A stretch of DNA of 64,000 nt from Deltaproteobacteria bacterium (GTDB taxonomy: Bacteria > Desulfobacterota > Desulfobacteria > Desulfobacterales > Desulfosarcinaceae), in NCBI GenBank assembly GCA_021824175.1, contig JAKALP010000010.1:124001-188000 (forward strand), given 5' to 3'. The first letter of the stretch is position 1, and the number at the start of each line of letters is the position of its first letter. The position numbers were made by a program, and so were the translations under genes. Of the stretch, positions 1 through 64,000 are shown one piece after another. The notes under the pieces were generated by a model. That model did no database searches. It worked only from the letters and a program-made list of their open reading frames with translations, and was not told the DNA's origin.

Positions 1-78
1 TTTAATATCCCGGAATCGGCGTTACCCACAATTCGGGTTGTGAAGTTATCGCCCCAAGGATATGTTGAGGAAACTTAA
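1..78 (+). CDS. C-terminal end of an unidentified upstream gene
   Basis: An open frame enters from the left edge and gives 25 residues, ending in a TAA at the end of the feature. It lies about 50 bases upstream of rng on the same strand. In related bacteria a B12-binding radical SAM protein often precedes this RNase, so that is a possible identity, but too little is visible to assign one. Confidence 0.5.
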   Translation, partial: FNIPESALPTIRVVKLSPQGYVEET

Positions 79-60384: not shown

Positions 60385-60458
60385 CGCCGCTGGCTATCAC
60401 AAGCCATCTCAATCAACGGATTTTGATCAAGATTGCGATGGTTGGTAAAGTAACGACA

Positions 60459-60603
60459 TCGTGCGTGAACGAAAAGCCCATATTTTTCCAAGTTCAAGGC
60501 GGAGGCAAAATTTTAACCGGATACGTACACGTAGTATTTCGAGGATTAAAATTTTGCCCCAACGCGGAAATTGGGAAAATAGGGGGTTTTCGTTCACGCA
60601 CGA
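60459..60603. repeat. 145-bp inverted-repeat element (MITE-like)
   Basis: TCGTGCGTGAACGAAAA (60459-60475) is the exact complement of TTTTCGTTCACGCACGA (60587-60603). An inner perfect pair GGCAAAATTTTAA/TTAAAATTTTGCC makes the whole fold into one long hairpin. No gene is inside and no clear target duplication is visible. It lies between the FMN reductase gene and the HesB selenoprotein gene. Confidence 0.72.
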
Positions 60604-60604
60604 C

Positions 60605-60894
60605 CTAACACGGCTCGGAGGCCGGCGAACAGATCACAAAGCCTTCACCATACCAGGAATCTTTGTAATCGATCGCGGTTTGATGGAGAAGCTCTTCTTC
60701 TCGCCGGTCATACACAAAGTCGATGCCGTTTAAGTGCACGGTTTCATCTCCGGCCCTTGGTTCATCCAGAACCATTGCCAAACGCGGCCCGACTCAGCCG
60801 TAACCCTGCTGCATCAGGCGAATCGCCTTGGTGGAATACTCCTTGAGCACTTTGAGAAGTTCAGTTCTGGCGGTTTTCGTCATGGTAATTTCAA

Positions 60895-60898
<4 letters not shown>
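60605..60898 (-). CDS. HesB/IscA-like selenoprotein (in-frame UGA as selenocysteine)
   Basis: Reading through one TGA (60796-60794) gives a 97-residue HesB-like protein. The context is [18 protein letters not shown], in which U occupies the first metal/cluster Cys position of IscA-type proteins. A shortened C-terminal pair of cysteines follows (ICSPASEPC). Related Sec-containing HesB-like proteins are known in deltaproteobacteria. A hairpin with stem TGGTTC/GAACCA lies about 20 bases after the UGA and fits a bacterial SECIS. The ATG overlaps the uvrA stop (ATGA), so translation is coupled to uvrA. A role in Fe-S handling or redox is inferred. Confidence 0.85.
60750..60796 (-). promoter_or_regulatory. 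Candidate SECIS element
   Basis: The region directly after the UGA codon folds as TGGTTC-TGGAT-GAACCA (60774-60758) with an outer GGCC/GGCC pairing. Distance and position suit recognition by SelB. Confidence 0.6.

Positions 60899-64000
<3,102 letters not shown>

Follow-up and report, generated by a model that had tools for sequence, protein, structure and literature searches.

A probable HesB-like selenoprotein gene of a divergent clade, with an in-frame UGA and a covarying SECIS hairpin, in a member of the Desulfosarcinaceae

The A-type carriers of Fe-S clusters (IscA, SufA and ErpA) have three conserved cysteines, one placed early in the protein and two in a C-terminal CGC motif. HesB-like selenoproteins have long been known (PMC1794560, PMC1088965), and the initial annotation of the locus described here rightly treated them as an established family. 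Their SECIS structures have been drawn (PMC1794560, legend), and their UxGP motif is among those listed in PMC13188914. For the HesB-like selenoprotein of Methanococcus maripaludis, the function is described as not clear, and a disruption mutant can still fix nitrogen (PMC11097638). The rules for bacterial SECIS elements given in PMC13188914 comprise a loop of 3-9 nt with a G within its first two positions, a stem of 4-16 bp, a loop located 16-37 nt after the UGA and a free-energy limit of -7.5 kcal/mol. A second type of cluster with a UGA-reading anticodon has been described in the Desulfobacterales, in which selC*, a tRNA-Cys with a UCA anticodon, is followed by selB* and cysS* (PMC7609411); target genes for it do not appear to be named there.

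The gene, its homologs and selection on its product

The sequence analyzed is a 64,000-nucleotide stretch of contig JAKALP010000010.1 (assembly GCA_021824175.1), referred to throughout as the window. On its minus strand, an open frame of 97 codons, counting its single in-frame TGA, is followed by a TAG stop (Table 1). The initial annotation had proposed both this frame and the overlap of its ATG (60898-60896) with the stop TGA of uvrA (60897-60895) as ATGA, and the sequence confirms the two at these coordinates. A GGAGG, contained in uvrA, lies four bases 5' of the ATG. The list of window open reading frames of at least 60 aa holds no entry for 60605-60898 on the minus strand. Taken together, the evidence presented below indicates that the frame, here called hesB, is a working selenoprotein gene in which the UGA at codon 35 would be read as selenocysteine (Sec), with a probability of about 0.93.

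Table 1. Coordinates of features at the hesB locus, in window positions.
Feature	Coordinates	Strand	Basis or remarks
Probable HesB-like selenoprotein gene (hesB)	60605..60898	-	97 aa with Sec at codon 35; stop TAG 60605-60607
In-frame TGA, codon 35, predicted to be read as selenocysteine	60794..60796	-	conserved TGA and canonical Sec machinery
Predicted bacterial SECIS hairpin UGGUUC-UGGAU-GAACCA	60758..60774	-	five-pair core 60759-60773; loop 25 nt after UGA
GGAGG, likely ribosome-binding site of hesB, within uvrA end	60903..60907	-	sequence
uvrA, 3' part	60895..64000	-	stop overlaps hesB start; neighbor, functional link not supported

The predicted product passes the Pfam Fe-S_biosyn model (PF01521; 31.7 bits versus a cut-off of 26.3). 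Scored with C substituted for U, its best NCBIfam match is IscA_HesB_Se (NF038090), at 53.1 bits and thus under the cut-off of 85, and HesB_rel_seleno (TIGR01911) gives 38.3 bits, under a cut-off of 66.35. The UxGP motif is present as U35-V-G-P, with U in all seven close sequences described below and C in the same column of five Cys-type homologs, and in the printed alignments residue 35 falls on a Cys of both HI1723 and AQ_1857. The proposal that Sec replaces the conserved IscA/HesB Cys is borne out by these alignments, and the motif, the Fe-S_biosyn match and the conserved TGA support the assignment as a HesB-like selenoprotein, very probably from a divergent clade of the known family.

Homologs were sought at several phylogenetic levels. 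At least 170 of the 194 genomes in the order gave some match at E ≤ 0.001; among the matches listed, most were ordinary HesB proteins with 23-38% identity, many of them with one TGA, and, the window's own gene aside, only two were close forms (70 and 71% identity). The family-wide search found a close form in 5 of 30 genomes at E ≤ 1e-12, all of which fall among the 11 genomes of the window's genus, and a scan of named genomes located five close loci, including Desulfobacterales, Desulfobacteraceae and Desulfatitalea (two). Seven distinct close sequences are thereby available, including that of the window, to which the others are 61-75% identical. All seven carry TGA at codon 35, and none of the close homologs found indicates the genuine stop at this codon that the initial annotation had named as counter-evidence. 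More distant homologs were taken from 27 loci (L025-L051), of which L034 did not match the motif pattern and was left out; the remaining 26 have TGA (21) or a Cys codon (5) at the codon-35 position. The second Sec-type gene of the window genome (L126) was read but left out of alignment A2. In the inferred tree the seven close sequences form one clade on a long branch, with a support of 98/100 from a bootstrap that had not settled, and the tool warns of long branches meeting (L046 with the clade of seven), which leaves any placement of its nearest kin tentative. Comparison of the window gene with that of genome G087, a single pair, yields dN/dS values of 0.24/1.44 before the TGA and 0.17/1.70 after it, indicating that the protein is under purifying selection on either side of this codon.

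The hairpin downstream of the UGA

The SECIS-like hairpin that the initial annotation had placed after the UGA is supported, and comparison across 28 sequences strengthens the case through covariation. The predicted structure has a loop of 5 nt (UGGAU, with G in the second position) and a stem of 6 bp, and in loop size, stem, loop G and spacing it conforms to the layout rules given in PMC13188914. The apical hairpin alone has a free energy of -6.8 kcal/mol, just short of the -7.5 kcal/mol limit, and the 46 nt from the UGA reach -15.8 kcal/mol. Folding of these 46 nt is not unusually good (z = -1.16), and equally good hairpins were found at 107 of the 2174 TGA sites of the window (4.9%; all frames on both strands, single-stem test). 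What raises the hairpin above chance is the combination of a TGA in 7/7 close sequences, low dN/dS and a core pairing with covariation in the 28 sequences.

The seven close sequences and the 21 Sec-type homologs align without gaps from the TGA onward (n = 28), and core columns 24-28 pair with columns 34-38 in all 140 of 140 cells. Seventeen sequences have C-G as the middle core pair and 11 have U-A, a two-sided change; of the other core pairs, two are invariant and two change on one side, covariation being present in one of the five pairs. At the codon level, the 11 sequences with Val GTT have Glu GAA and the 17 with Ala GCT have Glu GAG, such that the third base of the Glu46 codon, a silent position, changes in step with the middle base of codon 43. 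Covariation scores 0.226, versus a shuffled mean of 0.128 and with 0 of 500 shuffles as high, and pairing falls to 15-48% when the core alignment is slid. Two of the five pairing measures do not exceed the shuffles: the number of two-sided pairs (1 versus 0.9) and that of further pair types (3 versus 4.0). The two codon states (GTT:GAA and GCT:GAG) are separated by three changes on the best tree, of which well-supported branches force only one. The covariation may therefore rest on one to three events, and the shuffle figures overstate the number of independent events accordingly. In the five Cys-type homologs the hairpin is not formed, with 1-4 of the 6 pairs present. Synonymous change within hesB is lowest in the 7-codon window 40-46; constraint over codons 42-48 is not significant alone (P about 0.07) and was set aside as independent evidence for the hairpin. 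The window genome also encodes an ordinary HesB-like selenoprotein (L126, positions 1498-1824; G000 contig C10), whose gene has an in-frame TGA and a hairpin of the GCT...GAG state.

Predicted role and genomic context

A search of solved structures by sequence returned HI1723 (E = 0.0003), AQ_1857 and, weakly, E. coli IscA (E = 0.02-0.03). The AlphaFold2 model of the product (33 aligned sequences) has a mean pLDDT of 92.7 and a pTM of 0.84, and the solved folds nearest to it are HI1723, E. coli IscA (TM-score up to 0.81), AQ_1857, SufA and DsrR, the twelve best structural matches being 17-27% identical to it in sequence. The three-Cys arrangement of A-type carriers is altered, the first position being Sec and the tail presenting Cys90 and Cys97 with no CGC. 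By eye, Cys97 lies approximately at the start of the C-terminal Cys motif of IscA, and Cys90 is extra and special to the clade.

As regards the role of the product, our first choice, held tentatively, is that of an Fe-S or metal carrier, in which Sec35, together with Cys97 and the extra Cys90, would most likely bind metal or an Fe-S cluster, possibly with a part in redox chemistry. The tail CSPxSEPC, and with it both cysteines, is kept in six of the seven close sequences, and the folds near the model include that of a [2Fe-2S]-bound IscA; both observations argue against a selenoprotein that carries neither Fe-S nor metal and whose Sec35 would be a redox nucleophile on its own or a carrier of S or Se. 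The seventh sequence (L059, positions 2537-2830) keeps the TGA and has lost both C-terminal cysteines, with W and V in their stead (VVWSPASEPV), from which it appears that three-ligand binding by Sec35, Cys90 and Cys97 is not universal. Since this member keeps Sec35 only, the lone-Sec role follows close behind and is itself quite conceivable; in its favor are also the invariance of Sec35 in 7/7 sequences, the joint loss of Cys90 and Cys97, the lack of the Cys-rich tail of ordinary members and the presence of DsrR, of IscA-like fold, among the near folds. The short-tailed clade may help to clarify the function of HesB-like selenoproteins.

The initial annotation had regarded an operon with uvrA as the new part of the finding, and this claim is not supported. 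The ATGA overlap and the ribosome-binding site inside uvrA would fit translational coupling in the window genome, and could be read as a functional operon in which the carrier meets metal or redox demands of UvrA or of DNA repair under stress. The distribution of the two genes makes that reading improbable. A tblastn search of the loci that hold the six other close sequences, with the 1034-residue window part of UvrA as query, returned no hit, a result that for L059, L061 and L064 covers short stretches of 6.1, 4.9 and 3.3 kb. At E ≤ 1e-110, uvrA is present in 10 of the 11 genomes of the genus, at 12 loci, and hesB follows it in the window genome only (at L132, where the uvrA end was not properly read, hesB was sought over the whole locus). 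None of the nine other congeners with uvrA has hesB in the flank after it: five lack a close hesB at E ≤ 1e-12, and four (G152, G194, G198 and G199) hold it elsewhere. Among predicted proteins of at least 90 aa in the stretches compared, the seven hesB loci share no neighbor, the five cross-locus hits being frames that overlap the hesB genes themselves. The literature searched contains no paper joining HesB, selenoprotein and uvrA, and since the link is not conserved, the missing precedent is no gain. A conserved uvrA-hesB operon was therefore rejected. The gene seems to be a solitary one that occurs at different genomic places, and probably came to lie beside uvrA through local rearrangement; the adjacency looks accidental to the window genome, and the link should not be carried forward.

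Two further features of this region were recorded. A palindromic repeat, MITE-like or REP-like, with 58-nt arms that are 83% complementary, occupies window positions 60459-60603, one base from the hesB stop, and recurs at 33 other places of the genome at E ≤ 5e-26; its position hints at local rearrangement in the window genome. Rfam matches to MIR1515 and MIR403 at 60453-60612 sit on this multi-copy repeat, far below their gathering scores, and were discarded. The window uvrA continues beyond the window in an open frame of 1841 aa and apparently encodes a double-length UvrA; open frames of 1769-1841 aa are found in seven other genomes of the genus, and contig C30 of the window genome carries another uvrA, whose open frame of 946 aa is of ordinary length.

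Decoding of the UGA and comparison with known systems

The window genome (6.07 Mb in 61 contigs, 99.5% complete, 3.4% contamination) contains one selA match, a canonical full-length selB on contig C31 and a canonical tRNA-Sec on C32. Two selD genes, on C22 and C51 (L018 and L019), score above the cut-off, and both contain an in-frame TGA. The search for selA, selB, selC and selD proposed by the initial annotation thus finds all of them, and selB and selC, whose absence it had taken as decisive against its reading, are both in place. On the Sec reading, translation of hesB would start at the ATG overlapping the uvrA stop, and SelB with GTP and Sec-tRNA-Sec, tethered to the downstream hairpin, would insert Sec at codon 35 in place of termination. 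The resulting 97-aa product would fold like the IscA/HesB proteins (A-type carriers), its Sec35 taking the position of the first conserved Cys of IscA. That Sec is inserted in the cell is what we infer from these genomic data.

A second UGA-anticodon system (selC* UCA tRNA, selB* and cysS*) was observed in the window genome on contig C22 (170000-184000; L054), where a formate dehydrogenase alpha gene is followed by the UCA tRNA, the second selB, a cysteine-tRNA ligase paralog, double-cubane reductase and activase genes, selD and yedF. In a survey of the order that scored at most six candidates per genome, selB* stands apart in at least 20 of 194 genomes, and 18 of 20 loci have a UCA tRNA upstream of it. 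Read by eye, the selC* gene of the window genome ends in U-CCA and sets A1 against C72, versus A1-U72 in 11 of the 16 other tRNAs compared and G-C in the other 5.

The machinery was compared across the seven distinct genomes with hesB (G218 and G219 repeat G198 and G199). Canonical full-length SelB is encoded in all seven, and a canonical tRNA-Sec over the cut-off in six, none being found in G198, a genome that is 64% complete. A second SelB at E ≤ 1e-50 occurs among these seven in the window genome only; shorter partial matches (open frames of 400-417 aa, probably EF-Tu) were left out of the count. Five genomes (G087, G152, G194, G199, which is 91% complete, and G217) keep the UGA and have one full-length canonical SelB and one tRNA-Sec(UCA) each, with no SelB* at E ≤ 1e-50 and no further hits over the tRNA-Sec cut-off, the next best of those typed being Ser, Leu, Trp and Cys(GCA) tRNAs. 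Typing was applied to part of the hits (12 loci, then 20 on rechecking, with 10 in common), and the 20 rechecked loci comprise five tRNA-Sec and 15 tRNAs for Ser, Leu, Trp, Phe or, at L086, Cys(GCA). These five genomes seem able to read the hesB UGA only as Sec. Since they retain the UGA with canonical SelB and tRNA-Sec and without selB*, Sec is by far the better reading, and decoding of hesB does not need the selC* system, even if the latter is present in the window genome and reads UGA in principle.

Two ways in which the second system might nevertheless act on hesB were weighed. Because each of the two UGA-anticodon tRNAs of the window genome has its own elongation factor, it is conceivable, and distinctly improbable, that the codon is read as Sec when selenium is available and as Cys via SelB* in its absence, so that one codon would act as a Sec/Cys switch with no second gene. 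Still less likely is that the window-genome UGA is read as cysteine by the selC* tRNA-Cys(UCA), SelB* and CysRS* of C22. The UCA tRNA, SelB paralog and cysteine-tRNA ligase paralog do adjoin there, as in the clusters reported for Desulfobacterales (PMC7609411), but the five genomes with canonical machinery keep the UGA, the ordinary HesB selenoprotein gene of the window genome bears the same kind of hairpin, and A1 faces C72 in the selC* of the window genome, versus A1-U72 in most of the others seen by eye. The Sec reading is hence retained. UGA normally terminates translation, and the adjoining uvrA itself ends in TGA, but purifying selection on both sides of codon 35, a TGA in 7/7 sequences down to 61% identity, the covarying hairpin and a confident IscA-like predicted fold that spans the TGA leave hardly any room for a genuine stop, with hesB as a decaying remnant or chance frame.

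What is new here is a divergent clade of HesB-like selenoproteins falling under the curated cut-offs, together with comparative support for its SECIS element. The covariation of codon 43 with the third base of the Glu46 codon, in two states, provides such support for the SECIS of the family and a ready test for it. Given scores below the curated models, genes of this clade are probably dropped or truncated in annotation.

Compared with the HesB-like selenoproteins represented by TIGR01911 and NF038090, the window clade shares the predicted Sec at UxGP, an IscA/HesB-type domain of about 100 aa and a hairpin in the same position as in the 21 ordinary Sec-type genes of the order. It differs from them in its low identity to the 26 ordinary members aligned (31-38%), in scoring under both NCBIfam cut-offs, in four extra residues before the last strand (DSWYGEGF), which among the 26 ordinary members are found in L046 only, in a short CSPxSEPC tail that replaces the Cys-rich tail, and in the lack of shared gene neighbors. 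With respect to E. coli IscA, SufA and their kin, the predicted fold is alike and residue 35 occupies the conserved Cys position of HI1723 and AQ_1857, whereas Sec would stand in for that Cys and, by eye, one Cys lies near the C-terminal Cys pair, with Cys90 in addition.
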